A stretch of DNA of 64,000 nt. It comes from Nakamurella aerolata (GTDB lineage: Bacteria > Actinomycetota > Actinomycetes > Mycobacteriales > Nakamurellaceae). This document shows, one piece after another, positions 2,748 to 64,000 of the stretch (the stretch's first letter is position 1; the number at the start of each line of letters is the position of its first letter). The stretch spans positions 1 to 64,000 of the forward strand of contig NZ_JABEND010000013.1 of the NCBI RefSeq assembly GCF_013002705.1, read 5' to 3'. The notes under the pieces are model-generated. The model did no database searches, was not told the DNA's origin, and was given only the letters and a program-made list of their open reading frames with translations. The position numbers and the translations under genes were made by a program.

Positions 2748-3557
2748 TTAGTTTCCGATCACGAGGATGCTGGCGGCGGATTCTATGACGTCGTCGGTGA
2801 TGGTCTCGAGTTGGTTGATCTTGAGCACTCGGGCGATCTGAGGGAAGAGGCGTTCGAGGAGGCGGAAGTTGCCCCGGGTGATGCGTTCGATCGCGGCGAT
2901 CGCTTGCGCGTCGGTGAAGTCGTCTGGGTCAAGAGTGCGGCCGAGGCGTTTCCAATGGCGATCGAGGACGAAGAGCAGTTCCTCGCGTCCTAGTGCCCGG
3001 TATCGGTGTGAAAATCCGAGGCGGCTGTAGAGCTGAGGGTAGTGGCGAAACCGCTGGTCAATGCCAGGCATGCCGATGAGGATGATCGCCAGGTCGTAGC
3101 GGTCGTGTTCATCACGGAGGAGTTCGAGTGCGGTCGGGGCCAGTCGTTCGGCTTCATCGATGATGAGCAGCTCGACCCACTTGTTGGTGTGACCTGAGCG
3201 GGCGCCGGTGACTTTGCCGATGTTGCGCTGGTGTTCGTCGATGCAGATGCCGAGCTTTGTCTGCAGGTGCGCGATCTCGTGCATGAGGATTTTGGGCCTG
3301 GGGAGCACCTCGGGGGTGTAGAACACGGTCCGGCACCGGTTCGCAGTTGCATAAAGCTTGGCGTCGTCTTCGGTGCGCGGCCCCCATTCGGTGATGAACG
3401 GTTCCACGGTGTCCCAGTGGGCGTATCGGCGTGCCGATTGGGTCTTGCCGATGCCGGCGTCGCCGTGACAGATGCCGATGGTGCGTTCCTTGCGTACCGC
3501 GGTGGCGAATTCGGTGAACCGGCGATGTTCCTTGGTGATGATGAAGTCCTTGGCCAT
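2748..3557 (-). CDS. tniB: TniB-like AAA ATPase, transposition accessory protein
   Basis: A 269-residue AAA+ ATPase that activates the partner DDE transposase and helps select target DNA, as TniB/MuB/IstB-type proteins do. Walker A is GDAGIGKTQ (about residue 32), Walker B is ELLIIDEAE, and a sensor region IILIGMPGIDQRF follows. It ends in the conserved LLERLFPQIARVLKIN stretch. The start lies two bases after the upstream tniA stop, so the two are translationally coupled. The homologue at 9836-10654 shares the same motif order, but the two differ at many positions. Confidence 0.85.
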   Translation of the reverse strand: MAKDFIITKEHRRFTEFATAVRKERTIGICHGDAGIGKTQSARRYAHWDTVEPFITEWGPRTEDDAKLYATANRCRTVFYTPEVLPRPKILMHEIAHLQTKLGICIDEHQRNIGKVTGARSGHTNKWVELLIIDEAERLAPTALELLRDEHDRYDLAIILIGMPGIDQRFRHYPQLYSRLGFSHRYRALGREELLFVLDRHWKRLGRTLDPDDFTDAQAIAAIERITRGNFRLLERLFPQIARVLKINQLETITDDVIESAASILVIGN

Positions 3558-3559
3558 CC

Positions 3560-4939
3560 TTAGTCCTCTTCGTAGGTGCGCAGCTTGGTTGGCCGCGCTC
3601 CGGGGGCGGCGGTGCGCGGTTCGGCCCGATCGGCGATACGCGGGATGCGGTCGTTGATGTCTTTGCGCAGTTGGCGCCGGCGGGCTCGGCGTGCGGTCTC
3701 GACTTCTTGCAGGCTTACCCGTTGGTTCGGGTGCGCCTCATCGATGGCCACGCAGAGGAAGGTGTCGCGGTCGTATACGCGAACCTCGGAGATGTCACGC
3801 GGGTCGTAGCGGATCGTCACCGGGCGGCCAACGAACGGTGCCAGAGTTGGCGCGAGGTAGCGCCGGCCTTGGAAGTGGATGCCGTCACGCTGCACGGTGC
3901 GGTGCTTGGGCACCGTCAGCAGCAGTCCGTCGAGTTCATCGAGGGATTCGGGCATGCGTGGCAACCACCCGTCACCGATCCACGCCTTCTTCGGGCTCGT
4001 CCCGATCTCCCGGTGGGTCCGCTCGTTGTAGGTGGCGATGAAACCGGCGATCGCCTGATCGAGCGCAGGTAGATCCAGTGATGGAGGTGTCTTGGCCCCT
4101 GGTGCCAGATGTCCGGGCAGGGTGGCCAGGAGCTCGGTGTTGACTGTGCCGAAGAACCGCTCGATCTTGCCTCGGCCTTGCGGGCGACCGACGGTGGAGA
4201 AGATGAGGCGGATTTTCAGTGAGACCGCGGTGTACTCGAGGTGGCGGCTGGTGAAGTCGCTGCCGTGATCGATATAGAGGACGTCGGGTAGTCCGCACAT
4301 CGCCCAGGCCGGTTCGGTCTTGCGCCAGATCGCCTGTCGTAGCACCAGCGCGGTGTTCATCGCCGATGGCGCCCCGGTGAAGACCATGTACCCGCAGACC
4401 GCGCGGGAGTAGTCGTCCATCACCACCGTCAGCCAGGGCCGGTCGGGGGTGCCGCTGGCGCCGGTGATGAGGATGTCGAGTTCGGTGTGATCGGCTTGCC
4501 ACGTCACATTCGGCCGTTCGGCGCGATGGCGGAACACCAGTTCATAGCGGTCCCGATATGCTGCCGGCCCCTCCAGAGCAAGCGTCACCAGGGCCGGGTC
4601 CAAAGCGTGGACGATGGCGCGGACCGTGGCATAGCTCGGGGCCGCCAAACCCAAGCGACCCGCTTCGGCCGTGGTGAGCCGGTGCAATGCAGCGGTGCTC
4701 GGGCGTGGGCGGGTCAGCGCGAGGTGCTCGAGAAACGTGACCAGTTCCGCCGGAGTGCGTCGAGATCCCGTGTCGCGTCGTGGCCGCGGCTCCAACGCCG
4801 CGATGCCGCCGGTCTTGTAAAGCTGGTGCCAGCGTTGCAGTGTCCGCAGCCCGGTGCCGGTGTCACGGGCCAGGGTCGTCAGCGAGATGCCGTCCTCGAC
4901 GTGAAGCCGGAGGATTCGCCACCGCTGCGGCCCGTCCAT
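3560..4939 (-). CDS. tniA: TniA-like DDE transposase (Mu/IS481-type rve integrase)
   Basis: A 459-residue transposase. An N-terminal helix-turn-helix (WRILRLHVEDG...LRTLQRWHQLY) is followed by an rve integrase core. The catalytic triad is visible: Asp in TWQADHTELDI, Asp in LYIDHGSDF and Glu in GRGKIERFFGTVN. A Mu-type C-terminal beta-barrel region follows. The start at 4939 (MDGPQRW) lies one base after the resolvase stop; the longer frame upstream overlaps the resolvase and was rejected. It sits between the resolvase and tniB as in Tn402-like modules and would cut and join the ends at 2700 and 7745. Confidence 0.88.
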   Translation of the reverse strand: MDGPQRWRILRLHVEDGISLTTLARDTGTGLRTLQRWHQLYKTGGIAALEPRPRRDTGSRRTPAELVTFLEHLALTRPRPSTAALHRLTTAEAGRLGLAAPSYATVRAIVHALDPALVTLALEGPAAYRDRYELVFRHRAERPNVTWQADHTELDILITGASGTPDRPWLTVVMDDYSRAVCGYMVFTGAPSAMNTALVLRQAIWRKTEPAWAMCGLPDVLYIDHGSDFTSRHLEYTAVSLKIRLIFSTVGRPQGRGKIERFFGTVNTELLATLPGHLAPGAKTPPSLDLPALDQAIAGFIATYNERTHREIGTSPKKAWIGDGWLPRMPESLDELDGLLLTVPKHRTVQRDGIHFQGRRYLAPTLAPFVGRPVTIRYDPRDISEVRVYDRDTFLCVAIDEAHPNQRVSLQEVETARRARRRQLRKDINDRIPRIADRAEPRTAAPGARPTKLRTYEED

Positions 4940-4940
4940 G

Positions 4941-5543
4941 TCACACCTGCTGGGAGACCATGTCGCGGTCGCGGGCAGCCTGTTGGTGCCGGTACAGCGT
5001 GGCGCGAGACCATCCGACCAATCGGGCGGCTTCCTCGGCGGTGCGACCCTTGGCGCGGGCGTCCCGAGCGATGTCGAGTTTCTCCGCAATCACCGCCGGG
5101 TCAACAGGCGGCCGACCGAACCGGGTACCGCTCTGCTTCGCCGCAGCGATGCCGGCATTGACTCGCTCGGTGATCAGCTCGCGCTCGTACTCGGCCAGCG
5201 TGGCCAGCATGCCCAGCATTAACCGGCCGGAAGTGGTCTCCGGGTCGATGCCGTCCGAAAGCGACTTGATCTTTACGCCCTTGTCGCGCATCAGGTTCAC
5301 GGTGTTGAGGACATCGATCAAGGATCGGCCGAGCCGGTCGATGCGCCACACCACGACCGTGTCGCCGGACTCGGCATAGTCCAACAGGCGCTTCATCCCC
5401 GGGCGTTCGATCGCGGTCCGGCTACCCGAGGTCACATCCGCGAACACATCCCGCTTCTGCACCCCGGAATCCACGAGTGCATCCAACTGCAACTGCGCGT
5501 CCTGACTCGCAGTGCTCACGCGGGTGTACCCCAAGAGCCTCAT
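4941..5543 (-). CDS. tniR: Serine resolvase/invertase of the mer transposon
   Basis: A 200-residue resolvase. The catalytic serine is in LLGYTRVSTASQDAQLQ; the dimer-helix part has WRIDRLGRSL and MLATLAEYERELITERVNAGI. A C-terminal helix-turn-helix reads GRTAEEAARLVGWSRATLYRH. It would resolve cointegrates at an upstream res site. The start at 5543 (MRLLGY) was preferred over 5561, because family members begin one or two residues before the LLGYTRVS strand. It is only modestly similar to the resolvase at 7838-8434, so the two elements carry distinct resolution systems. Confidence 0.88.
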   Translation of the reverse strand: MRLLGYTRVSTASQDAQLQLDALVDSGVQKRDVFADVTSGSRTAIERPGMKRLLDYAESGDTVVVWRIDRLGRSLIDVLNTVNLMRDKGVKIKSLSDGIDPETTSGRLMLGMLATLAEYERELITERVNAGIAAAKQSGTRFGRPPVDPAVIAEKLDIARDARAKGRTAEEAARLVGWSRATLYRHQQAARDRDMVSQQV

Positions 5544-7837: not shown

Positions 7838-8434
7838 ATGTCCGCTTTGAAGGTCGGGTACGCCCGAGTCTCCACCGATGAACAGGACCTCACCGCCCAG
7901 CGCGATGGCCTCAGCGCTCTCGGTGTCGATGCGAAGCGGATCTATGTCGATCACGGACTGACCGGCCGCAACGCGGATCGCGCCGGGCTGCGGCAGGCGC
8001 TGGCGGCGTGCCGGGCCGGTGACACGTTCGTAGTCACCAAGCTCGACCGACTGGCGCGTTCGGTGCGCGATGCCCACGAGATCGCCGATGACCTCGCGGC
8101 GCGGGAAGTGAAGCTCAGCATCGCCGGATCGGTGTATGACCCGACGGACCCGATGGGCAAGCTGCTGTTCAACGTGCTGGCGATGGTCGCCGAGTTCGAA
8201 GCCGACCTCATCCGCGCCCGCACCCGCGAAGGGATGAAGGTCGCCAAGGCCAAGGGGCGACTGCGCGGGAAGTCTCCGAAGCTCACCGCCCGGCAGGAGG
8301 CACATCTCGTCCAACTGCATGCCGCTGATGAGCACACCGTGGGTGAGCTGGTCGAGCTGTTCAGCGTCGGCCGCTCCACGGTCTACCGTGCCCTGGAGCG
8401 CGCGCAGCGTGGCCGCGAGAGCGTCGTGCAGTAG
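7838..8434 (+). CDS. Serine resolvase of the second element
   Basis: A 198-residue resolvase. The catalytic serine is in VGYARVSTDEQDLTAQ; further motifs are KLDRLARSV, MGKLLFNVLAMVAEFEADLIRARTREGM and a C-terminal helix-turn-helix (HTVGELVELFSVGRSTVYRAL). It would resolve cointegrates at the res-like motifs just upstream. The transposase gene starts 8 bp after its stop. Its cognate res region appears to have been split by the mer transposon, so its upstream DNA context has changed. Confidence 0.88.
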   Translation: MSALKVGYARVSTDEQDLTAQRDGLSALGVDAKRIYVDHGLTGRNADRAGLRQALAACRAGDTFVVTKLDRLARSVRDAHEIADDLAAREVKLSIAGSVYDPTDPMGKLLFNVLAMVAEFEADLIRARTREGMKVAKAKGRLRGKSPKLTARQEAHLVQLHAADEHTVGELVELFSVGRSTVYRALERAQRGRESVVQ

Positions 8435-8441
8435 GTTCGCG

Positions 8442-9839
8442 ATGGACGCTGCGGCGCGGTGGCGCATTCTCCGGCTCCACGTGGAGGACCAGGTTCCGCT
8501 CACGCGGCTGGCCCGTGAGTCCGGCGTCGGGCTGCGCACCCTGGAGCGCTGGCACGCCCGCTACCGGACCGACGGCTATGCGGGACTGGAGACGGCCCCG
8601 CGTGCGGACGTCGGCACCCACCGTCTGCCGGCCGATCTCGTCCGCGTGATCGAGGGCCTCGCGCTGAGCAAGCCTCGACCGGCGATCGCCACGATCCATC
8701 GCAAGGTCACCCGCATCTGCACCACCCACGGGTGGCCAGTACCCTCCTACTCGGTGGTATGGGAGATCGTGCGCTCCTTAGACCCGGGCATGGCCACCCT
8801 CGCCCTGGAAGGTGCGGCGTCCTACCGCGATAAGCACGAGCTGGTGCTACGACGTCAGGCCGAGCTGCCCAACACGATGTGGCAGTCCGATCACACCATG
8901 CTCGACATCCTGGTAGTCGGCACCGACGGCAAGCCCGCCCGGCCGTGGCTGACGACCATCCTCGATGACTGCTCCCGGGCGATCTGCGGCTATACCGTCG
9001 TCCTGGGTGCGCCCTCGGGGATGAACACCGCACTGGCCTTGCGGCAGGCGATCTGGCACAAGGCCGATCCTTCCTGGCCGATGTGCGGACTGCCGGACGT
9101 CCTCTACGTCGATCACGGCAGCGACTTCATCAGCCACCAGCTCGCCCACACCGCGGTCGACCTGCATATCCGGCTGATCCACTCCACCGTCGCCCGCCCC
9201 CAGGGCCGGGGCAAGATCGAGCGGTTTTTCGGCACCGTAAACACCGAGCTGTTGGCCGACCTGCCGGGACACATCGCCGAAGGCCAGCCCTGGCCAACGC
9301 CGAAACTCTCCCTGGCCGAACTCGATACCGCCATCGAGGGGTTCGTGGCCACCTACAACGACCGCACCCACAGCGAGATCGGCACTTCCCCGCGCAGCGC
9401 GTGGATCGCCGAGGGCTGGCTGCCCCGCATGCCCGAGAGCCTGGAAGCTCTCGACGGACTGCTGCTGACCGTCGCCAAGACCCGCGTCGTGCACCGCGAT
9501 GGCATCCGCTTCCAGGGACTGCGCTATGTATCCCCGACCCTGGCCGGCTACGTCGGACAGTCGATCGTGATCCGCTACGACCCCCGCGACATTACCGAGA
9601 TCCGCGTCTTCGACCACGACGAGTTCCTCTGCAAGGCCGTCAACCAGGACCTCCACGACCAGAAGGTCAGCCTCAAAGAGATCCAGTCCGCTCGCAACGC
9701 CCGCCGCCGGGCACTACGGGCCGGCATCAACGAACGCATCGCCGTCGTGACCGCACACACCGAGACGCCACCGACCACCGAAGCACCAGCCCCAGCGCCG
9801 AAGCCGGCGTTGAAGGTCTACAAGGAGGACCTGAGGTGA
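8442..9839 (+). CDS. tniA: TniA-like DDE transposase of the second element
   Basis: A 465-residue homologue of the transposase at 3560-4939. It shares WRILRLHVED at the N-terminus and has catalytic residues in MWQSDHTMLDI, LYVDHGSDF and GRGKIERFFGTVN. A C-terminal stretch GLRYVSPTLAGYVGQSIVIRYDPRDITEIRVF matches the Mu-type beta-barrel region. The start at 8442 (MDAAARW) aligns with the paralogue; earlier in-frame starts overlap the resolvase. The stop overlaps the tniB start (GTGA), and an AAGGAGG ribosome site lies inside its 3' end. Confidence 0.88.
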   Translation: MDAAARWRILRLHVEDQVPLTRLARESGVGLRTLERWHARYRTDGYAGLETAPRADVGTHRLPADLVRVIEGLALSKPRPAIATIHRKVTRICTTHGWPVPSYSVVWEIVRSLDPGMATLALEGAASYRDKHELVLRRQAELPNTMWQSDHTMLDILVVGTDGKPARPWLTTILDDCSRAICGYTVVLGAPSGMNTALALRQAIWHKADPSWPMCGLPDVLYVDHGSDFISHQLAHTAVDLHIRLIHSTVARPQGRGKIERFFGTVNTELLADLPGHIAEGQPWPTPKLSLAELDTAIEGFVATYNDRTHSEIGTSPRSAWIAEGWLPRMPESLEALDGLLLTVAKTRVVHRDGIRFQGLRYVSPTLAGYVGQSIVIRYDPRDITEIRVFDHDEFLCKAVNQDLHDQKVSLKEIQSARNARRRALRAGINERIAVVTAHTETPPTTEAPAPAPKPALKVYKEDLR

Positions 9840-10654
9840 GCCAGCGATTCATCGTCACCAAAGAACACCGCCGCTTCACCGAGTTCGCCGACGCCGTGCG
9901 CCGCGGCCACACCATCGGCCTGTGCTTCGGACCGGCCGGGGTGGGCAAGACGCTCTCCGCGCGCCGCTACGCACACTACGAGAAGGCCTACGACCTGCTG
10001 ACCTACTGGGGGCCGCGCTCCGACGATGACGTCAAGGTCTACGCCGCCCTGGCCAGAAGTCGCACCGTGCTCTACACCCCCAGCGTGCTGACTACCCCGC
10101 GGACACTGAAGGACGAGCTGACCCAGGCCATCACCCGCACCAACATCTGCATCGAGCAGCACCTCGCTCCGCACGGTGATGTGACACGCGAGACCTGGGG
10201 ATGGCGCCGCAGCAGGAACTACGTCGAGCTGATCATCGTTGACGAGTCCGAACGGCTCCGCCCCGCCGCGCTGGAGTTGCTGCGCGATCGCTACGACCGC
10301 GACGACATCGCACTGATCCTGATCGGCATGCCCGGGCTGGAGAAGCAGTTCAGCCACTACCCCCAGTTCTACAGCCGGGTCGGGTTTGCCCATCAATACC
10401 GACCCCTGGGCCAAGACGAACTGTTGTTCGTCCTGCAACGACACTGGCGCTCCCTCGGCAAGACCCTTGACCCCGAGGACTTCACCGACGCCCAAGCCAT
10501 CGCCGCCATCGCGCGGGTCACGCGCGGCAACTTCCGGCTGCTCGAACGCCTCTTCCCACAGATTCAGCGCGTGCTGAAGATCAACGAACTCGACACCATC
10601 ACCAACGACGTCATCGAAGCTGCCCAGAGCACCCTGGTCATCGGCGTCACCTGA
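9836..10654 (+). CDS. tniB: TniB-like AAA ATPase of the second element
   Basis: A 272-residue AAA+ ATPase. Walker A is GPAGVGKTLS, Walker B is LIIVDESERL, followed by ILIGMPGLEKQF and LLERLFPQIQRVLKIN. The GTG start at 9836 overlaps the tniA stop by 3 bp and has a strong AAGGAGG upstream; larger frames through tniA are artefacts. It works with the adjacent transposase. A region around residues 105-125 (APHGDVTRETWGWRRSRN) differs most from the paralogue at 2748-3557. Confidence 0.87.
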   Translation: MSQRFIVTKEHRRFTEFADAVRRGHTIGLCFGPAGVGKTLSARRYAHYEKAYDLLTYWGPRSDDDVKVYAALARSRTVLYTPSVLTTPRTLKDELTQAITRTNICIEQHLAPHGDVTRETWGWRRSRNYVELIIVDESERLRPAALELLRDRYDRDDIALILIGMPGLEKQFSHYPQFYSRVGFAHQYRPLGQDELLFVLQRHWRSLGKTLDPEDFTDAQAIAAIARVTRGNFRLLERLFPQIQRVLKINELDTITNDVIEAAQSTLVIGVT

Positions 10655-20076: not shown

Positions 20077-22746
<2,670 letters not shown>

Positions 22747-53633: not shown

Positions 53634-54011
53634 ATGGCCGATCAGCGGGATACCTCAACGAGTTCAGACGCCGACACTCAGGCGATCAACCCGAGCGTGC
53701 CGCCCAGCGGCCCCGGCTGTGTCGAGTGCGACGAGTCCGGCAGCTGGTGGGTGCACCTGCGTCGGTGCGCGGCGTGCGGACACGTCGGCTGCTGCGACAG
53801 TTCACCGAACAAGCACGCCACCGCCCACTACCGCGAAACCGGGCACCCGGTGATCGCCAGCTACGAGCCCGGCGAAGACTGGTTCTACGACTACCGCACC
53901 GAGGAACTCACCGAGGGCGTGCCACTCGCCCCGCCGGAGAGCCACCCGGAGGACCAGTCGGTTCCCGGCCCCGCCGACCGAGTGCCGCCCAACTGGCGCG
54001 ACTACCTGTGA
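53634..54011 (+). CDS. UBP-type zinc-finger protein
   Basis: A 125-residue protein with a ZnF-UBP domain: CVECDESGSWWVHLRRCAACGHVGCCDSSPNKHATAHYRETGHPVIASYEPGEDWFYDYR. The paired CxxC motifs and His residues match the zinc ligands, and the aromatic pocket is present. In eukaryotes this fold binds ubiquitin C-termini; the bacterial role is unknown. ATG at 53634. It ends exactly where three 96-bp repeats begin and precedes the GMC oxidoreductase. Confidence 0.88.
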   Translation: MADQRDTSTSSDADTQAINPSVPPSGPGCVECDESGSWWVHLRRCAACGHVGCCDSSPNKHATAHYRETGHPVIASYEPGEDWFYDYRTEELTEGVPLAPPESHPEDQSVPGPADRVPPNWRDYL

Positions 54012-54297
54012 GCCGACAGCGAGCGGAGGCAACGAGGTCCGGAGCGAGGAACGAGCGCAGGATCGAGGCCCGCAGCGAGCGCGGAGGCGAACAATCCAGC
54101 CCTGTGAGCCGACAGCGAGCGGAGGCAACGAGGTCCGGAGCGAGGAACGAGCGCAGGATCGAGGCCCGCAGCGAGCGCGGAGGCGAACAATCCAGCCCTG
54201 TGAGCCGACAGCGAGCGGAGGCAAAACGAGGTCCGGAGCGAGGAACGAGCGCAGGATCGAGGCCCGCAGCGAGCGCGGAGGCGAACAATCCAGCACT
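54008..54297 (+). repeat. Three 96-bp tandem repeats between two genes
   Basis: Units 54008-54103, 54104-54199 and 54200-54297 each start GTGAGCCGACAGCG. The first two are nearly identical; the third has two extra bases (GCAAAACG for GCAACG) and a changed end. The first unit includes the zinc-finger stop codon, and the GMC gene starts with the same GTGAGCC. The unit is rich in GAGCGAGGAACGAGCG and a multiple of three, open on both strands. It appears to be intergenic DNA multiplied by slippage or unequal crossing over. Confidence 0.85.
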
Positions 54298-56210
54298 GTG
54301 AGCCAGAACGATCCGGCTCGCTACGACTTTGTGGTGGTCGGGTCGGGCGCCGGTGGTGGCCCGCTGGCCGCGAACCTGGCGCTGGCGGGGTTCAGCGTGC
54401 TGGTGCTCGAGGCCGGCGGCGACCACAGCTGCCCGTACTACGAGATCCCGATCATGCAGGCGTATGCCAGCGAGGACGCCGACATGCGGTGGGACTTCTT
54501 CGTCCGGCACAGCGACGACGAGCCCACCCAGCGGGCCGACAGCAAGTTCCAGCCCGATCACGACGGGGTTTGGTACCCGCGCGGCAGCACTCTCGGTGGC
54601 AGCACCGCGATCAGCGCGATGGTCATCATCTACCCGCATGCCAGGGATTGGGACGATCTGGCCGAGCTGACCGGCGACCCGTCGTGGAACGCCGAGCACA
54701 TGCGCACGCTGTTCCACCGGCTCGAGGCCTGGCGCGGGGTGGACGCCGAACCGCTGCCCGGTGACGATGCCGCGACTCGTGACCGCAAGGCCGCCCACGG
54801 GCGCGACGGCTGGCTCGGCACCACCCGCGCCAACCCGAAAGTCGGTGGGCGGGAACCGATGTTTCTGGACATCATCGGTGCGATGGAGCGGACCAGCAGG
54901 GACCGCTTCGGCATCCCGGAACAGGTGTCGCTGCCGCGCGACCCGAACGCGGCCGACACTCCGCAGGACTACCAGGGCATGGCGTTCATCCCGGTGGCGG
55001 TGCGCGACGGGCACCGCAACGGCAGCCGGGAACGGCTGCAGCAGGTGGCGGCGCAGCACCCGGATCGGCTGCAGGTTCAGCTGGACGCCCTGGTCACCAG
55101 GGTGTTGTTCGACGGCGCCAGAGCGATCGGTGTCGAGTACCTCACCGGCGCCGGGCTGTACCGCGCCACCGCGGCGGACGCGCCCCATTCCGGCGACGCC
55201 GCAACGTCTTCCGGGCATCCCGCTGCACGGCAGGCCTATGCCGACAAGGAGGTGATTCTGGCAGGCGGCGCCTACAACACGCCGCAGCTGCTGATGTTGT
55301 CCGGCATCGGCCCGCGCGACGAACTTGACCGCCTCGGCATCGACACCCTGGTCGACGCTCCCGGGGTCGGCACCAACCTGCACGACCGCTACGAAATGGC
55401 CGTCGTGGCCGAAACCGACCGGGACTACCCGATTTTCGCCGGCTCGGCGCTTGATGTGCCGTCCGACCCGAACAGCTCGGATCCGCTGTTCGCCGAATGG
55501 CAGGACGACGCCGGCGGCCCGTACAGCACAACGGCTCGCTCGCCGCGATCATCGCCCGGTCGTCGGTGGCCGGAGCCGACAAAGCAGGTGCGGCGGACAA
55601 CTCTGGGCCCACCGCCTCCGACCTGATCATCTTCTCGCTGCCGATCGACTTTCACGGCTACTACCCCGGCTACTCCCACGACGCGGTGCGCGAACACAAC
55701 CGGCTGTCGGTGCTGGTCCTCAAGGGACACACCAACAATCGCGCAGGGACGGTGACGCTGGCGTCCGCCGACCCGCGCGACGTCCCGGTGATCCGATTCC
55801 GCTACTTCTCGGAGGGCTCAGACGGCTGGCAGGACGACCTTGAGGGCGTGGTCGACGGAATCGAGATCGCCCGCGACGTGATCGGGCATCTCACCGAGAT
55901 GAGCACGACGGAACTCATCCCGGGCGCGCAGGTCGACACCAGGGACAAGCTGAAAACCTTTGTACGGCAACAGGCGTGGGGGCACCACGCCTGCGGCACC
56001 GCGAAGATCGGCCGGGACGACGACCCGATGGCCGTGCTGGACGGTGACTTCCGCGTCCGTGGGGTGCAGAACCTGCGGGTGGTTGACGCCTCGGTGTTCC
56101 CCGACATTCCCGGTTTCTTCATCGCCTCGGCGGTGTACCTGATCAGCGAGAAGGCTTCGGACGCCATCGCTGCCGAGTACCGGGCCGCGCGCGCACCCGC
56201 TGGGAGGTAA
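54298..56210 (+). pseudogene. GMC-family FAD oxidoreductase, frameshifted
   Basis: A GMC oxidoreductase (choline/cholesterol oxidase superfamily). FAD motif: FVVVGSGAGGGPLAANLALAGFSVLVLEAG. Then GSTLGGSTAISAMVIIYPHARDWDDLAELTGD and GGAYNTPQLLMLSGIG (second GMC signature). The frame breaks near 55530 after GGPYST. One base over it continues NGSLAAIIARSSVAG... to HHACGTAKIG and NLRVVDASVFPDIPGFFIASAVYLISEKASD, the C-terminal signature with active-site His, ending at 56210. Losing one C from AGCACC-AACGG explains it. GTG at 54298 is the start. The substrate is unknown. Confidence 0.85.
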
Positions 56211-56267: not shown

Positions 56268-56849
56268 TCAGCCGTAGGTGTCGCGTGGGCCTCGCCCGGG
56301 AATGTGCCGCGGCCCGAAACGCCACGACGGGGCGGCCGGGCCGGTGGCCTTGATGCGCTTGACGGCGCCGCGGCCGACAGCGTCGTTGATGGTGCCCAGC
56401 AGCTGTGGCGACAGCATGCGCAGCTGGGCGGCCCATGCCGTGGATTCGCAGCTGACGGTGAGTTCACCGTCGACCAGGTTGACCGGGGTGGCGTGCTCGG
56501 CAATGCCCGGCCCGACAATGTCGGCCCAGCGGCCCAGCAGGTTGGCTTTGGTGAGATCCGTTGCGGCGCCTGAGTTCTTGACGAATCCGCGCAGCGCAAG
56601 CCCGAGCGGTTGCGGATCGCGGCGATCGGGGCCGGCCGCAGCCCAGCGTTTGCGCCGCAGCCGGGCCTGCAGCCCGGCCGAGGTGCCGTCGCCGCGTGGC
56701 GACCTGGCCCGCGGCCCGCGCGCGGCCGCCCGTTCCATTGCCGCCTGCAACGCCCGCCGCGCCGGGTCCGACGGCCGCGGCGCCGATGCTGCGGTCTCCG
56801 GCCTCTTCTCGGATTCCCCGTCCGGCGTCGAGTTCTCCCGGTCACCCAT
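56268..56849 (-). CDS. dciA: DciA-type helicase-loader protein (DUF721)
   Basis: A 193-residue protein with a disordered basic N-terminus and a C-terminal DUF721 domain: LLGRWADIVGPGIAEHATPVNLVDGELTVSCESTAWAAQLRMLSPQLLGTINDAVG. DciA interacts with the DnaB helicase at replication start in bacteria lacking DnaC. In actinobacteria the gene lies between recF and gyrB; here recF is upstream with one small gene between, but gyrB is about 34 kb away. ATG at 56849 was chosen; two further copies of ATGGGTGATCGGC precede it. Confidence 0.88.
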   Translation of the reverse strand: MGDRENSTPDGESEKRPETAASAPRPSDPARRALQAAMERAAARGPRARSPRGDGTSAGLQARLRRKRWAAAGPDRRDPQPLGLALRGFVKNSGAATDLTKANLLGRWADIVGPGIAEHATPVNLVDGELTVSCESTAWAAQLRMLSPQLLGTINDAVGRGAVKRIKATGPAAPSWRFGPRHIPGRGPRDTYG

Positions 56850-56872
56850 GCCGATCACCCATGCCGATCACC
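56847..56872. repeat. 13-bp tandem duplication at the dciA start
   Basis: CATGCCGATCACC occurs twice in tandem (56847-56859, 56860-56872) and is followed by a third CATG. This gives three successive ATG codons on the minus strand at the dciA start. The stop of the upstream gene (repaired frame, 56868-56870) lies inside it. Confidence 0.7.
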
Positions 56873-57325
56873 CATGACGCGGCGACCAGGGACCGACGCC
56901 GCCGATCCGCTCGATCCGGTAGTGCACCAGTAGTCCGTCTGGGAAGTTCGGGTCGGGTGCTGGGTTGGGCGCCGGGAACTCGAAATCTGGCCCGACGTAA
57001 CGTTTCCAAGCTTGGTGAGCAGCTCGGGGGCGCCGCCTTCGGTGACGGTGGCGGTGGCCTTGAGCACCGCGTTGCGTTCCAGATAGCCGTGATCGGAGCC
57101 CGGCGCCGGGAACGACAGTGTGCAGCGCGGATCGCGGCGCAGGTTGCGCAGCTTGAGGTAGTCGCCCATGTGGGCGCTGACCAATTCGTCGCCGTCCCGA
57201 TCGATCCAGATGCTGCTGACCTGCGGGGAGCCGTCTTTGTTGATGGTGGCGAGCATGGTGACCGGCCCGGCGTCGATCACCTCGCGCAGCGAGGCCGGCA
57301 GCGACGGGGGCAGGTGCGGCGTCAT
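56868..57325 (-). pseudogene. Pyridoxamine-5'-phosphate-oxidase-fold (F420/FMN) protein, frameshifted
   Basis: A PPOX-class protein: LREVIDAGPVTMLATINKDGSPQVSSIWIDRDGDELVSAHMGDYLKLRNLRRDPRCTLSFPAPG, the flavin-binding split barrel. The frame breaks near 57005 after ELLTKLG. One base over it continues KRYVGPDFEFPAPNPAPDPNFPDGLLVHYRIERIGGVGPW, the standard ending of actinobacterial TIGR03618-like F420 enzymes, and stops at 56868-56870. One lost base in CTTGG-AAACG explains it. ATG at 57325 was taken; GTG at 57358 overlaps the recF stop. It lies between recF and dciA, an unusual position. Confidence 0.78.
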
Positions 57326-57354: not shown

Positions 57355-58650
57355 TCACCGCTGGTCGTCGGCAGTGGCGGAGGTCTCAGCGGACGGCCGC
57401 AGCACCGGGCCGACCGGCTGTTCCGAACCAGCACGCTCCGGATCAGCACGTGTCGGATCAGCGCGTCCGGCGTCACCGCCCTCATCGGCGGCAGGCGTCG
57501 ACTCACCCGGCTCCGGGTCGGCAACGGTGACGGTGCGGCCACCCAGCTCGGCGGGCACGTCGGAGGCGACGGCGGCGGTGATGAGCACCTGCTCGGCGTC
57601 GGCGACCAGCTGGGCCAGCCGGGCCCGGCGGCCGGTGTCCAGCTCGGCGAACACGTCGTCGAGAATCAGCACAGGGTCGACGCCGTCGCTGCGCAACAGC
57701 TCGAACGCGCCCAGCCGCAGCGCCAGCGCCAGCGACCACGACTCACCATGACTGGCGTAGCCCTTGGCCGGGCCGTCGCCGAGCAGCAGCTCCAGCTCGT
57801 CCCGGTGCGGCCCCACCACGGTGATACCGCGTTCCAGTTCCACCGGCCGGCGGCGGGAAATGCGTTGCAGCATCGCCGCTGTCAGCTCGTCGGCGCCGGG
57901 AGCGGCAGCCGCGTCCGGCGGCGCGGTCAGCTCCTCGAGCACCGACGACTGGTAGCGCAGATCGACCGGCTCGGACGCCGGCGCCAGATCGGCATAGGCG
58001 GCGACCACGTACGGACGCAACTGCTGCACCAGCCGCATCCGCTCGGCCATCAGCTGGCCGCCGACGGTGGCGAGTTGGGAGTCCCACACCTCAAGGGTGG
58101 CAAGGTCCGGCTGCCCGCCGGAGCGTCGCGCCGCCACCACCGACTTCAGCAAACTGTTGCGCTGCTTGAGGATTCGGTCGTAGTCGGACTTCACCCCGGC
58201 CAGCCGCGGCGCCCGCATGATCAACGTGTCGTCCAACAGCCGGCGGCGCTCGGACGGGTCGCCGCGCACCAGCGCCAGATCTTCCGGCGCGAACAACACG
58301 GTCCGCAGCACCCCGAGAACGTCCCGCACCCTGGTGACCGGCGCCCGGTTGATCCGGCCGCGGTTGGCCCGGCCGGCATTGATCTCCACCTCGACCAGCA
58401 GCTCCCGGCCGTCGGACACCACCGCCGCCCTGACGATGGCCTGCGCCGCGCCGCGCCGCACCAGCGCCTGGTCGGTGGACACCCGGTGCGAGCCCAGCGT
58501 CGCCAGATAGCCGACGGCCTCCACCAGGTTGGTCTTGCCGATGCCGTTGCGGCCGACGAGCACCGTCACCCCGGCGCCCAGCGGCAGCTCGGCCGTCGGC
58601 CACGACCGGTAGTCGGCGACGGACAGATGACGGACGAACACAGCGTCCAT
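57355..58650 (-). CDS. recF: DNA replication and repair protein RecF
   Basis: A 431-residue SMC-like ATPase that loads RecA at gaps. Walker [28 protein letters not shown]. Family motifs: [37 protein letters not shown] and the signature region [20 protein letters not shown]. Walker [25 protein letters not shown]. The C-terminal 60 residues are acidic and disordered. ATG at 58650 (MDAVFVRHL) is the usual start; the longer frame is not. dnaN, the normal upstream neighbour, is replaced by a SARP regulator. Confidence 0.95.
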
Positions 58651-58906
58651 CTTGGCGGATCGAATCGCTCGGCGACGGCCCCGGGGGCGACGCTCTCCGG
58701 CATCCCGGGTGACCCGACCCCGTACCAACACCGACGACTTGTCCGATTAAGTGACGGCGATGGCGGTGTCGCTGCGTGTACCCCGGCCTGGTACATATTC
58801 ACCCGAATTACCCTTGGATACCCCGACGCGGTGGTGCCGACGCTGGCACACTGAGTGCTGACCTAGGCCGGTTGGACGGACGCGCGGCGATCGGGGGCGA
58901 GCATTC

Positions 58907-61900
58907 GTGGCTCAGCGCAGGCTCTTGTTCACTGTGCTGGGGCCATTGCGGGTTTTCGACGGCTCGACCGAACTGGCTCTGCACGGCCAGAAGGAGCAAC
59001 GGGTGCTGGCCGCGCTGCTGGTGCAGGCCGGCCGATCGGTGCCGATGCATCGGCTGATCCGCTCGGTCTGGGACGAGGACCCACCCGTCACCGCCGATCA
59101 TCAGGTTCGCAAGGCCATCGCGCAGCTGCGGCAGCAGTTGGCCGGCGACCCGGACGTTGCCATCCGCACCGATTCCGCCGGTTATCGCCTCGAGTTGCCC
59201 GCCGAACGGTTGGACCTGCTGGTCTTCACCGCGGCGACGAAGGCCGCCCAGGATCCAGCGGATCCGGCCGGCGCCGCCGACCGGCTGCGGCAGGGTGTTG
59301 ATCAGTGGCACGGGCCCGCGCTGGCCGGGCTGGCGTCGACGGAATTGCAAGCGGCAGCCCAACATCTCGAGGAGCTGAGGCTGGCCGCGGTCGAACAGCT
59401 CGCCGATCTCGAGGTGACCCTGCAGCGCCCGGCGGCGGCGGTGCAACTGCTGTCCGGCTTGGTGGCCGAGCACCGCACCAGGGAATCCTTGGTGGCCAGG
59501 CTGATGCTGGCGCTCGACCGGTCCGGGCGCCCCTCGGATGCGCTGCGGCTGTACGACGGGTGCCGCCGGCTGCTCGACGACGAACTCGGCGTGTCCCCCG
59601 GCGCCGAGCTGGCCGGGATGTACCAGCGCATCCTCACCGCGGATCCCGGCTCGCCGGCTGCCGCGGAGCGCGATGCCGCGCAGCCGGCGGCCACCGGCCC
59701 CGATCCCGCCCCGGCCGTCACCGATTCCCGTCAAGGCGGCGGCGACGCATCCGCCCGCCCCGCGGCAACCGACAACCAGCAGGTAGTTGCCGGTCGGCGC
59801 CCCGACGAACGCCGCTCCCGGCTGGTGGTGCCGGTCGGTGGCGCGGTCGCCGCTACCCCGGGAGCCACCCCCATCCCGGCAGCGACACCGCCGGGCATGC
59901 CGCAGCCCGGCACGCCGCAGCCGCGGGCACTGCCACATCCCCGCGCCGGCGCGACACCCGACATCGCCACGGCGGGTGCGCAAGCGCCAGGACGTCACCC
60001 TGCCGCCGGGACCGGACCGCAGATGCTGTCGACGCTGCCGTACGACCTTCCGGACTTCACCGGCCGGGCACCGGAGCTGACCGCGCTGGAGATGCTGCTG
60101 CCGGAGCCCGACGTCCGGCGCACCACCATCGTGGTGTTGCAAGGCATGCCGGGCGTCGGCAAGACCGCCATGGCGGTGCATGCGGCACATCGATGGCGCT
60201 CGCGCTACCCCGACTGCCAGTTCTTTCTCGACCTGCACGGCCTGACCGAGGGGCGGGATCGGCTGGAGCCGGAGGAGGCACTTGACCGGCTGCTGCGCTG
60301 GATCGGCGTGCCCGGCAACCAGATTCCCAACCATCCCGACGAGCGCGCCGCGCTGTGGCGAGACGGCACGGCCGGCCTGAAGATGCTGCTGGTGCTCGAC
60401 AATGCGGTGGATTCGTCGCAGGTGCGGGCGCTGATTCCCGGGTCGGACGACGCCCTGGTGATCGCTACCAGCCGGGCCGGGCTGCCCGGTCTGGACGGCT
60501 CGGTTCCGCTGCTGCTCACCCCGCCGTCCGCCGAGGACGGCCAGGCCTTCTTGGCGGCAACCCTCGGTCGGGAGCGCCTCGACGCCGAACCCGGCATGGC
60601 GGACCGACTGCTGGAATGCTGCGGTCGACTGCCGCTCGCGGTGCGGATGGCGTCGGCCCGACTGCAGGCCCGCCCGCACTGGCAGCTGGCCAAGTTGGTG
60701 GACCGGCTGCGATCCGCGGAACGGCCGCACAAAGAACTGACGGTGGAGGGCCGCGGCGTCGACGCGGCGATCCGCTTGTCGTACAACGGGTTGAGCCCGC
60801 AGCAGCAGCGGTTCTTCCGCTTGCTGTGCCACGTCACCGACGAGACGTTCTCCCCCTACCTCGCCGCGGCCGCCGCCGGGCTGCCGACCGAGCAGGGTGA
60901 GGCGCTTCTGGAGCAACTGCTCGACGCCAGGATGATCGAGTCGCCGCGCCCGCAGCGCTACCAGTTGCACGATCTGATGCGCAGCTTCGGCGCCGACCTG
61001 ATCGACGCCGACGAGGCCGACACCGCCCAGCGGTGCTACCACGACGCGCTGCTCGCCGGCGTCCGCGCTGCCGCGGCCGCCCTGCAGCCGGATCGGGCGG
61101 CCATCGACCTTGACCTGAACGCGCCGGACGACGCGCCGACGTTCGACGGTGACGCCGCCGCCTACGCCTGGCTGGACGAGGAGTACCCGACCATCAGGGC
61201 GTCGGCGCTGCGCGCACCGGCGTTGGGTCTGCATCGCCACGCCATCGCCTATGCCAGGGAGTTGACCTACTACCTGCAGGTTCGCGGCGCCACCTCGACC
61301 CAACTGGCGCTGCTGTCGGCGGCGGTGGCCTCGGCCCAAGCGCTCGGCGACCGCGACGAAGAGCTGCGCGGCCGGATCAACCTGTTCCCGCCGCTGTGGG
61401 GATCCGGCGACATTCAGACGGCCAGGCGGCATGCGGAGCAGGCGCTGCAACTGTCGCGGGAGCTCGGCTCCCGACGCTGGGAAGGTGTCTGCCTTGCCAA
61501 TGTCGGGGTGGTGCTGCGCGGCGCCGGCCAGTTCCGCGACGCGATGCGCTACTTCCACCAGGCGCTGGCGATCCACCGAGAGGTGGGCAACAGCCGGCAG
61601 GAGAATTCGGTGCTGATCGCCATCAGCTTGGTCCTGACCGACCTTGGCGAGCACGCCCAGGCCCTGCGGACCGCGGCCGAAGTCGAGCAGCGGGTGCGGA
61701 ACCAGCCGAGCGTCAGCCGCCGGGTGATCCCGACCATCAACCTTGCGCAGTTGCAGGCGCGTCACGGTGACGCCGAGATCGCGACCGAGTTGTACGCATC
61801 GGCGCGCCGCAGCGCAGAGTCGATCGGCATGCCGCTGGCCACTGCGCTGATCGACATCGGCATGGCTGACCTGTTGGCCCGCAAGGGATTTGCCGACGAG

Positions 61901-62335
61901 CAGCACGCCGGCTGGCCCACCGCGGACGCCGGGCCGGTCGCTCCGGACGGATCGACAACCGATCTTGCCGCCGCCCTGCGGATGGCTCGGGCCGGTGCCC
62001 GATCGGCCGGGCAGCTGGGTGAACCGGGAGTAGAGGCGTCAGCGGCCAACACCCTCGGGCTGGTGCACTGGCGGCGCGGCGAATGGGAGCAGGCCGAGAC
62101 GGCCTACCGCTTGGCCGCCGAACTGGCGCCCCGCGCTCACGAGGTCGCCGAGCACCTCACCGCGCTCGTCGGGTTGGCGTTGGTGGCGCAGGTCCAGGGC
62201 GCCGACAGCACGGATCGGTGGGCGCAGGCGACGGCGCTGGCCGGGTCGTTGGACGGCGCCTACGCCGCCAGGATCGGGCGCTGCCGGCGCGCAGCCACCG
62301 GGCGGGTGGGCACGGCGGCTGACGTCACCACCTGA
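58907..62335 (+). CDS. SARP/AfsR-family regulator (BTAD, NB-ARC, TPR)
   Basis: A 1,142-residue regulator. An OmpR-type DNA-binding domain (LLFTVLGPLRVFDGSTELALHGQKEQRVLAALLVQAGRSVPMHRL; about residues 6-95) is followed by the BTAD helices (to about 245: LEELRLAAVEQLADLEVTL ... LDDELGVSPGAEL). An Ala/Pro/Gly linker to about 365 leads to an NB-ARC ATPase with Walker A GMPGVGKTAMAVHAAHRW (about 412). A TPR array (about 790-1080) includes GVCLANVGVVLRGAGQFRDAMRYFHQALAIHREVG. Such proteins activate secondary-metabolite or stress genes. GTG at 58907 starts it. The large antisense frame is a shadow. Confidence 0.92.
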   Translation: MAQRRLLFTVLGPLRVFDGSTELALHGQKEQRVLAALLVQAGRSVPMHRLIRSVWDEDPPVTADHQVRKAIAQLRQQLAGDPDVAIRTDSAGYRLELPAERLDLLVFTAATKAAQDPADPAGAADRLRQGVDQWHGPALAGLASTELQAAAQHLEELRLAAVEQLADLEVTLQRPAAAVQLLSGLVAEHRTRESLVARLMLALDRSGRPSDALRLYDGCRRLLDDELGVSPGAELAGMYQRILTADPGSPAAAERDAAQPAATGPDPAPAVTDSRQGGGDASARPAATDNQQVVAGRRPDERRSRLVVPVGGAVAATPGATPIPAATPPGMPQPGTPQPRALPHPRAGATPDIATAGAQAPGRHPAAGTGPQMLSTLPYDLPDFTGRAPELTALEMLLPEPDVRRTTIVVLQGMPGVGKTAMAVHAAHRWRSRYPDCQFFLDLHGLTEGRDRLEPEEALDRLLRWIGVPGNQIPNHPDERAALWRDGTAGLKMLLVLDNAVDSSQVRALIPGSDDALVIATSRAGLPGLDGSVPLLLTPPSAEDGQAFLAATLGRERLDAEPGMADRLLECCGRLPLAVRMASARLQARPHWQLAKLVDRLRSAERPHKELTVEGRGVDAAIRLSYNGLSPQQQRFFRLLCHVTDETFSPYLAAAAAGLPTEQGEALLEQLLDARMIESPRPQRYQLHDLMRSFGADLIDADEADTAQRCYHDALLAGVRAAAAALQPDRAAIDLDLNAPDDAPTFDGDAAAYAWLDEEYPTIRASALRAPALGLHRHAIAYARELTYYLQVRGATSTQLALLSAAVASAQALGDRDEELRGRINLFPPLWGSGDIQTARRHAEQALQLSRELGSRRWEGVCLANVGVVLRGAGQFRDAMRYFHQALAIHREVGNSRQENSVLIAISLVLTDLGEHAQALRTAAEVEQRVRNQPSVSRRVIPTINLAQLQARHGDAEIATELYASARRSAESIGMPLATALIDIGMADLLARKGFADEQHAGWPTADAGPVAPDGSTTDLAAALRMARAGARSAGQLGEPGVEASAANTLGLVHWRRGEWEQAETAYRLAAELAPRAHEVAEHLTALVGLALVAQVQGADSTDRWAQATALAGSLDGAYAARIGRCRRAATGRVGTAADVTT

Positions 62336-62339
62336 GCGG

Positions 62340-62564
62340 CTACTCCTCGACCGGGTCCAGGTGGCCGCCGCTGTCGGGTGTCGCAATGTGCGCCGCCGGG
62401 CCGCCGGACGCCACGCTGGTGACCACCGGTGCGGCCACGCCACCGCCGACCACCAGCGCCGCCACCGCGGCAACGACGGCTCGGCGGACGGTGCGCCGGG
62501 TTCGGCGCCCGCTCTGGATGGCGGGGGTTGCGGGTGCCGTGGCGACGGTGTCCTTCTCGTTCAT
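62340..62564 (-). CDS. Small membrane-anchored or exported peptide
   Basis: A 74-residue peptide. A polar N-terminus (MNEKDTVATAPATPAIQSG) and a basic stretch (RRTRRTVRR) precede one hydrophobic segment (AVVAAVAALVVGGGVAAPVVTSVA) and an acidic tail (GGPAAHIATPDSGGHLDPVEE). GACGGAAAC lies before the ATG at 62564. It could be a single-pass membrane protein or an exported peptide; no cysteine is present. It converges on the SARP gene with 4 bp between stops and diverges from the HprK-like gene, so it may be regulated with them. No family is recognised. Confidence 0.45.
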   Translation of the reverse strand: MNEKDTVATAPATPAIQSGRRTRRTVRRAVVAAVAALVVGGGVAAPVVTSVASGGPAAHIATPDSGGHLDPVEE

Positions 62565-62819
62565 GGTTGTTTCCGTCCCGTTGGAGTGACTGCGCAAGGA
62601 GCCGGCGGCGCGGCCCGAACAGCCGGCGCTGCTACCACCAGCGCCGAACCGCTCGTGGTGAACCGGACAGGTCGACCGGCCGCCGAAGACACCCACCATC
62701 CAGTCACGGCCGGATACCGGAACGTTCCCGCCGGCCCACCCGCGCCGGCCATGGATCGGTCGCCGGGAGCGGGATCGAACGGGGACCCAACCGGAACGAC
62801 CCGTCGGCACCCTGCTGGC

Positions 62820-63824
62820 ATGGATTCTGCTGACCTGAATTCAGCGGGCCGGGCGGCCACCGCGACAGCGTCCCCGCACGGACCAGCCGGCCACCGGCCT
62901 GCCGTCACCCGGATCGCCGCGTCGCCCGCCAGTCACCAACGCCGCACGCTGGAGTTCTTCACCCACACCTTCACCGTGGTCGGCGACGAGCTGCCCGACC
63001 TCGGCTTCCACTTCGGCCCGCATCTGGCCCGCACCCGCAGGGCTGATTTCCAGGTCGAGATCACCGGACCCGCCCTGCCCGGCCAGCGCGGCAGCTCCCG
63101 GGCACTGGAGCGGGAGGTCAGGGTGCGCCGGGCCGACGGCGTCAGCATGCTGCGCCGGCCGCTGGTCTCGTTACACCAGTTCCCGCCGGCGCTGCCGCCC
63201 TTTGCCGCGCTCGGCGACCGGTACGCGATCCGTCCGGCGACGGTGGTGCACCGCGGCCCGACGACGCTGGCCCTCACCGGCACCGACCCGTCCGAGTGTG
63301 CCGAGCTGGCGCTGGCGCTGTGCCGGCTGGGCTGGCGGCTGGTGTCCAGTCAACTGCTGGTGATCGACCGGCGGATCCGGCGGACGCTGGCGCTGCACAC
63401 CCCGTTGCGGTTGCGCGGTGCCGCCGCTGCGGACATCGCCGCCAGCACGCCGGACGACGCCGTGCAGACCTGCCAATCCGCGCTCACCGGGCCGACCCTG
63501 CTGGTTCGCCCTGAGGCGGTGGGCGCCATCGTCCCACTGCACGCCGAACTGCCGCTGCCGCTCGAGGTCAGGATCTGCCGCGGCCGAGCTGACCTTCCGC
63601 GGCTGCGCGGCCGCTGTGAACAACCGAGCGCGTTCTGGCCTCCGGAGGCCGCCGAGGTGGGCCGCGCGCTGAACCGGGTTTACCTGGAAATCCCCCGACC
63701 AGCGGCCGCCGACGAGGTGGCGCTCGAGATGCACCGGCAACTCAGCCGGCCGAACGCTGCGGAGCGGCTATGCCACGACGAACGAGCTACCGTGCCGGCA
63801 CCCCGTGCTGGATCGATTGCCTGA
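62820..63824 (+). CDS. Hypothetical protein with HPr-kinase-like fold but degenerate P-loop
   Basis: About 334 residues; the start is uncertain (ATG 62820 or 62751; neither has a good ribosome site). The middle reads AIRPATVVHRGPTTLALTGTDPSECAELALALCRLGWRLVSSQLLVIDRRIRRTLALHTPLRLRG. This follows the order of HprK-related kinases (P-loop, helix, GW-L-S-D strand, PLxLRG), but the GxSGxGKS P-loop is replaced by TGTDPSECAE, so ATP use is doubtful. The family call is tentative. Its 3' end overlaps the next gene by 55 bp, which is longer than usual. Confidence 0.45.
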   Translation: MDSADLNSAGRAATATASPHGPAGHRPAVTRIAASPASHQRRTLEFFTHTFTVVGDELPDLGFHFGPHLARTRRADFQVEITGPALPGQRGSSRALEREVRVRRADGVSMLRRPLVSLHQFPPALPPFAALGDRYAIRPATVVHRGPTTLALTGTDPSECAELALALCRLGWRLVSSQLLVIDRRIRRTLALHTPLRLRGAAAADIAASTPDDAVQTCQSALTGPTLLVRPEAVGAIVPLHAELPLPLEVRICRGRADLPRLRGRCEQPSAFWPPEAAEVGRALNRVYLEIPRPAAADEVALEMHRQLSRPNAAERLCHDERATVPAPRAGSIA

Positions 63825-64000
63825 CAACGGATCCGACCGGCTTCGCCGGCTTCTTCGCGGAGCTGTTCGGCTGGACCCTTGAGGGTGAAGACGGCTACCG
63901 CTTGATCCAAGGCCGCTCCGGACTGATCGGTGGGTGCGGCCGGGCCCCGATGGGTAGCGGAGCGTCCGCCTGGACCGTCTACTACGCCAGCGCCCACCTG
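63770..64000 (+). CDS. VOC-family protein (partial, runs off the window)
   Basis: The first 77 residues are MPRRTSYRAGTPCWIDCLTTDPTGFAGFFAELFGWTLEGEDGYRLIQGRSGLIGGCGRAPMGS...AWTVYYAS. This is the first half of a two-module VOC protein of the hydroxylase/CFP32 type common in actinobacteria. GGAG precedes the ATG at 63770. The gene begins inside the 3' end of the HprK-like gene. Function cannot be judged from the partial sequence. Confidence 0.75.
   Translation, partial: MPRRTSYRAGTPCWIDCLTTDPTGFAGFFAELFGWTLEGEDGYRLIQGRSGLIGGCGRAPMGSGASAWTVYYASAHL

Follow-up and report, generated by a model that had tools for sequence, protein, structure and literature searches.

Azol(in)e RiPP clusters of the NHLP/TOMM type, as described in PMC4603692, comprise a YcaO protein with a leader-binding domain, a SagB-like dehydrogenase, NHLM exporters, and long NHLP leaders. 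The same set, with putative NHLP leaders, was observed in a stretch of ~31 kb in Nakamurella aerolata, which, compared with the NHLP/Nif11 group of PMC4603692, adds poly-Cys tails, a P450, a methyltransferase, a B12 radical-SAM protein, and a Rieske enzyme; the term P450 did not occur in the main text of that paper. Titles and abstract openings of the NHLP/YcaO/P450/radical-SAM literature contained no poly-Cys cluster of this make-up.

The left end of this stretch lies in the window, i.e., the 64,000 nucleotides of DNA analyzed here, and carries a trio of genes encoding a large SARP regulator, a 74-aa peptide, and an HprK-like protein. Large regulators of the AfsR/SARP family show the same domain order as the window SARP (winged helix, BTAD, a putative NB-ARC, TPR); however, the top NCBIfam model for the latter, AfsR, scored 413 bits (residues 360-933), far below its equivalog cut-off of 1430, and the window SARP is lineage-specific and lies beside a RiPP cluster. 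RRNPP TPR receptors with their propeptides offer a second likeness, a TPR regulator adjoining a small exported-looking ORF, but here the DNA-binding domain is of the SARP type, the layout is convergent, and the pairing lacks statistical support; titles and abstract openings of the SARP/TPR/RRNPP literature gave Firmicutes systems. HprK-related kinases (TIGR04352) and HPr kinase/phosphorylase resemble the third protein in how the sequence is ordered about the Walker A strand-loop-helix, whereas the GK[ST], the catalytic His, and the acidic pair of these kinases are missing from it.

Gene Content and Setting of the Putative Island

Gene calls over C5:1-92000 placed recF at the left edge of the stretch and gnd at the right, and the trio and the RiPP pathway genes form a single contiguous stretch between them (table 1). 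Of 16 congeners, 13 have gnd next to recF, and three (L006, L009, and L010) have dnaN there, recF and dnaN being named from our own reading of the translations; thus, the ~31 kb with the trio is missing at this site in all 16. We considered it somewhat probable that the trio is the left regulatory or accessory flank of a 31-kb island, acquired and specific to this lineage, that occupies the site between recF and gnd and carries as its payload a RiPP pathway for azol(in)es with NHLP leaders. The island could be of composite origin, with more than one assembly event.

Table 1. Features of the Putative Island and Its Borders, in Window Positions or with the Prefix C5.
Feature	Position	Strand	Evidence
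recF	57355-58650	-	Gene calls; own reading
Left island junction (recF-to-SARP gap)	58651..58906	.	recF neighbors in 16 congeners
SARP/AfsR-type regulator (winged helix, BTAD, STAND/NB-ARC ATPase, TPR)	58907..62335	+	Pfam and NCBIfam matches
74-aa ORF, putative small membrane or secreted peptide	62340..62564	-	ORF and positional GC
HprK-like protein, probably catalytically dead	62820..63824	+	Profile/shuffle test, alignment A1, A1-guided AF2 and Foldseek
VOC/glyoxalase-like gene, start in window	63770..64000, to C5:64525	+	Glyoxalase_6 E 1.7e-7; gene call
LuxR-type LAL regulator	C5:64547-67267	-	
61-aa membrane ORF	Right of window, listed between LAL regulator and YcaO fusion		
YcaO fused to TOMM leader-binding domain	C5:67741-70074		PF02624 4e-96; TIGR03882 114.7 bits (cut-off 36.9)
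SagB-like dehydrogenase	C5:70164-71729		TIGR03605 147.6 bits (78.4)
NHLM HlyD-like protein	C5:71726-72538		
NHLM ABC1 with C39 peptidase	C5:72692-74842		977 bits (cut-off 853)
NHLM ABC2	C5:74861-77782		790 bits (cut-off 709)
Methyltransferase	C5:78225-79052	-	
P450	C5:79097-80386	-	
NHLP-type precursor 1 (likely)	C5:81078-81449		TIGR03793 E 5e-11, 42.3 bits vs curated cut-off 50.9
NHLP-type precursor 2 (likely)	C5:81621-82028		TIGR03793 E 3.5e-9, 36.4 bits vs curated cut-off 50.9
ABC exporter genes	C5:82131-84007		
Rieske protein	C5:84068-85033		
Hydrolase	C5:85030-85869		
B12 radical-SAM, KedN5-like	C5:86001-88058	-	1e-96
VOC	C5:88417-89181	-	
gnd	C5:89520-90425	-	Gene calls

The initial annotation had suggested a look beyond the right end of the window for modification enzymes. 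A YcaO/SagB/NHLM RiPP cluster is indeed present there; it is part of the same insert and begins 3.9 kb beyond the HprK-like gene. Its further proposal that the trio might be a small peptide system held insofar as a RiPP cluster shares the insert; the trio is not that system, and the precursors lie ~18 kb from it. The likely precursors are, rather than the 74-aa ORF, two NHLP-leader genes whose products end in DINCCCCPCCCCT and GIWDPYCCSCCPSCCSASGSG, i.e., poly-Cys tails (e.g., CCCCPCCCCT).

A second stretch of ~34 kb (window 22159-56267) separates gyrB (20077-22158, minus strand) from dciA (56268-56858, minus strand), and the dciA-gyrB distance was at most ~4 kb in the seven congener loci where both were seen; a PNPOx-like gene (56855-57325) lies between recF and dciA. 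Such a second stretch nearby suggests that the site acquires DNA repeatedly, and the region from dnaA to gyrB appears to be a hot spot for insertions.

Related Clusters and Membership of the Trio

A scan of genome contigs with the YcaO protein as query yielded 132 confirmed loci, 80 of which were kept, and pathway relatives were called by phmmer at E<=1e-4. All 80 loci encoded YcaO, and matches were obtained to the SagB-like protein in 30, the C39 ABC protein in 19, P450 in 12, precursor 1 in 8, radical-SAM in 5, and the methyltransferase in 4. The precursor, YcaO, SagB, P450, methyltransferase, and radical-SAM were all present in L040 (Anaerolineae), L041 (Ilumatobacter), and L056 (Alphaproteobacteria), the last of which additionally carries a Rieske protein and a hydrolase; L047 (Desulfobacterales) combines a precursor with radical-SAM, YcaO, and SagB. 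The precursor tails in L040, L041, L056, and L047 read CCCCTPCTCCT, CCSCCPCCSST, CTPCCTCT, and CCCTCTPCCCC. Cys-rich NHLP precursors with a common tailoring set were thereby seen across phyla, in Chloroflexota, Acidimicrobiia, and Alphaproteobacteria.

Within the stretches examined, neither the SARP, the 74-aa ORF, nor the HprK-like protein was found in the closest related clusters; thus, the trio may not be part of the pathway. A possible but rather doubtful alternative is that the SARP, 74-aa, HprK-like, and VOC genes are unrelated passengers that entered at the same hot spot as the RiPP cluster. It is consistent with the absence of all four genes from related clusters, with the absence of the HprK-like gene from congeners, where SARP homologues are at most 45% identical to the window SARP, and with the repeated uptake of DNA suggested by the stretch between dciA and gyrB; however, the genes lie in a single contiguous stretch, SARP and LAL regulators are typical of secondary-metabolite clusters, and SARPs recur beside YcaO. 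In 18 of the 80 YcaO loci, mostly from Lentzea, a SARP-type gene is directly divergent from YcaO, and in two others (L088 and L099) it lies farther away. This recurrence speaks for control of such actinomycete clusters by SARPs, although the YcaO-adjacent SARPs are short proteins with the DNA-binding part only, unlike the 1,142-aa window SARP, which is separated from the YcaO gene by 5.4 kb and by a second regulator gene. While we preferred the trio as the left flank of the island, its unity is one of shared position and not of a conserved unit: the co-occurrence in other genomes by which the initial annotation would have judged the three genes was not found in the collections searched, and the HprK-like protein had no credible relative there.

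The SARP Regulator and the 74-Residue ORF

The arrangement first described, in which a 1,142-aa SARP gene converges on a 74-aa ORF that is divergent from a 334-aa ORF, was confirmed by the ORFs, with a gap of 4 bp between the convergent pair. The SARP ORF begins with GTG; the gene caller favored the GTG at 58934, which gives 1,133 aa. An OmpR-type winged helix followed by BTAD occupies the N-terminus (Pfam Trans_reg_C 35.0 bits, cut-off 26.2; BTAD 117.9, cut-off 22.1) and TPRs the C-terminus (TPR_12 55.5 bits, cut-off 30.1), whereas NB-ARC, at 20.9 bits, fell slightly under its Pfam cut-off of 23.5. The closest congener SARP showed 45% identity across the NB-ARC part. The intergenic regions of the island showed no conspicuous heptameric repeats of the SARP type, and a search for a promoter-like site found none. 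We proposed that the SARP is likely a cluster-situated activator of the RiPP pathway.

The 74-aa ORF has an ATG start and a GC3 of 0.88, and in our reading its Arg-rich N-terminus and single hydrophobic segment resemble a signal peptide or a single TM helix. It matched no Pfam or NCBIfam family at cut-off and nothing in plasmids, and it is probably not a RiPP precursor or product. Its position 4 bp behind the SARP gene would also suit RRNPP-like signaling, in which the peptide would leave the cell, undergo processing, and after re-import be recognized by the SARP through its TPR domain, and two congeners, G012 and G004 (loci L184 and L185), carry a convergent small signal-bearing ORF behind a related SARP. 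Both of these small ORFs have a GD[IM]WD tail; however, this tail is missing from the window ORF, and the convergent secreted-ORF arrangement was not enriched, with 3/89 SARP genes against 5/286 control genes, nor was it enriched under four other settings (2-3/89 vs. 3-12/277). The sample consisted of 80 of at least ~150 SARP matches, mostly the top-ranked, together with 10 nearer ones, and a countable SARP was present in 89 of 91 loci. The pairs of the window and L184 fell outside these counts, presumably dropped by the overlap filter; adding them would give at most 5/89 (5.6%) against 1-4% of controls, which we did not take as enrichment because the hypothesis arose from those two loci. A general pairing of SARPs with secreted peptides was rejected, such ORFs being no commoner behind SARP genes than behind control genes. 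Without enrichment over controls, a pheromone role of the 74-aa ORF is not supported, and we regarded it as very unlikely. In L184 and L185, a lanthipeptide-like precursor ORF ending in ITTGC was also observed near the SARP/STAND/TPR gene and the convergent small ORF; neither of the two precursor-like ORFs nor the small ORF of L185 had a Pfam match.

The HprK-Like Protein

The coding signal of the 334-aa ORF (high GC3, low GC2) starts only at ~62,930; thus, the first ~37 codons are doubtful and look non-coding or of low complexity. At its 3' end the ORF is overlapped by the VOC gene by 55 bp, which indicates that the two probably form one operon. The initial annotation had read an HPr-kinase-like order with a degenerate P-loop in this protein. 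The degenerate P-loop stood, with GTDPSECA replacing the Walker A GxxxxGK[ST] in alignment A1, and the likeness to HprK proved weak. There was no Pfam match, and NCBIfam HprK_rel_A gave 12.1 bits (E 0.076) against a cut-off of 200. With our own profile of 33 HprK-related proteins from other genomes, the protein scored 8.4 bits; only one of 1000 shuffles did better, but so did two ABC ATPases encoded on its own contig. Comparison with the HprK profile by hhalign gave a probability of 47% (P 2e-4), and the alignment falls exactly on the Walker A/SDD stretch, with ALTGTDPSECAELALALCRLGWRLVSSQLLVID set against the Walker A strand-loop-helix and the following acidic strand. Moreover, in alignment A1, the His column before the P-loop strand does not hold His, and the acidic pair after the helix reads SQ. 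An AF2 model from the single sequence reached a pLDDT of 35.6, and one guided by A1 reached 58.3 (pTM 0.58), with block means of 72-89 over residues 91-160; Foldseek best matched the guided model to the HprK/P structures 2qmh and 1kkm (E ~1e-3), a match that is partly circular because the rows of A1 are HprK-related proteins. A non-HprK fold, which the initial annotation had named along with missing co-occurrence as grounds for refutation, did not emerge from these models. These results suggested that the 334-aa ORF probably contains a dead HprK-like domain, and the loss of the P-loop lysine, the catalytic His, and the acidic pair indicates that the protein is not an ordinary kinase.

No credible relative was found in 60 relatives, 396 phylum genomes, and 397 order genomes, nor in 23 genomes with related clusters, the genome contig scan, and plasmids, and phmmer gave no match in the 80 YcaO loci. 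Weak matches in 17/396 genomes at E<=1 and in 14/397 at E<=0.01, both counts including the genome itself, were short and scattered (best 20 bits) and were judged to be chance; the HprK profile gave no support to the twelve weak-match loci re-examined. HprK_rel_A matches in genomes with related clusters did not overlap the YcaO loci among those kept, and the best of the 18 matches of the HprK model to the 80 YcaO loci at E<=1 were P-loops that we read as those of ABC transporters. None of the papers searched joined HPr kinase, YcaO, and a biosynthetic gene cluster.

HprK-type kinases phosphorylate some lasso peptides, and the 74-aa ORF and the HprK-like gene are adjacent. A lasso-like scheme, with the 74-aa ORF as the RiPP precursor and the HprK-like protein assisting in its modification, is nevertheless extremely improbable: the GK[ST], His, and acidic pair are missing from the HprK-like protein, the ORF has no precursor-family match, and the family matches of the island included no lasso-type gene.

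Proposed Pathway

We proposed that the SARP probably controls the RiPP cluster and that, together with the LAL regulator, it would turn the pathway on. The YcaO fusion protein would bind the two NHLP precursors, the clustered Cys residues of which would become thiazolines and be partially oxidized by the SagB-like enzyme; C-methylation and oxidation by the B12 radical-SAM protein, P450, methyltransferase, and Rieske enzyme may follow, with cleavage and export via the C39-type NHLM transporter. If it takes part in the pathway, the HprK-like protein would serve as a scaffold or for binding, and its translation would be coupled to that of the VOC protein. A broader proposal, which we regarded as quite improbable as a whole, is that poly-Cys NHLP RiPPs across phyla are C-methylated polythiazol(in)e chains made by YcaO, SagB, B12 radical-SAM, P450, and methyltransferase, run here by a SARP-LAL relay, with a kinase-dead HprK-like leader-binding or scaffold subunit and a modulating role for the 74-aa membrane peptide.

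The trio alone is an ordinary context; it led to a putatively acquired island that encodes a predicted NHLP azole pathway with unusually rich tailoring and with cores of almost pure cysteine. If made as predicted, the product would show that long thiazole/thiazoline chains can arise ribosomally; to our knowledge, such chains are otherwise known mainly from non-ribosomal compounds. Titles and abstract openings of the thiangazole/tantazole literature gave no RiPP pathway.

Other Features of the Window

A defense role was considered and rejected, as PADLOC returned generic TPR and HTH-type matches only. At 54298-56210, a GMC-type oxidoreductase (our own reading) is apparently split between the frames 54298-55626 and 55497-56210, which overlap; a frameshift or an assembly error may be the cause, and at 53900-54300 a short tandem-like repeat appears as recurring peptide units in several frames. 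Farther left, two oppositely oriented cassettes (2748-5543 and 7838-10654) of resolvase-like, transposase-like, and ATPase-like genes, named from our sequence reading, enclose a reductase and a MerR-like gene.
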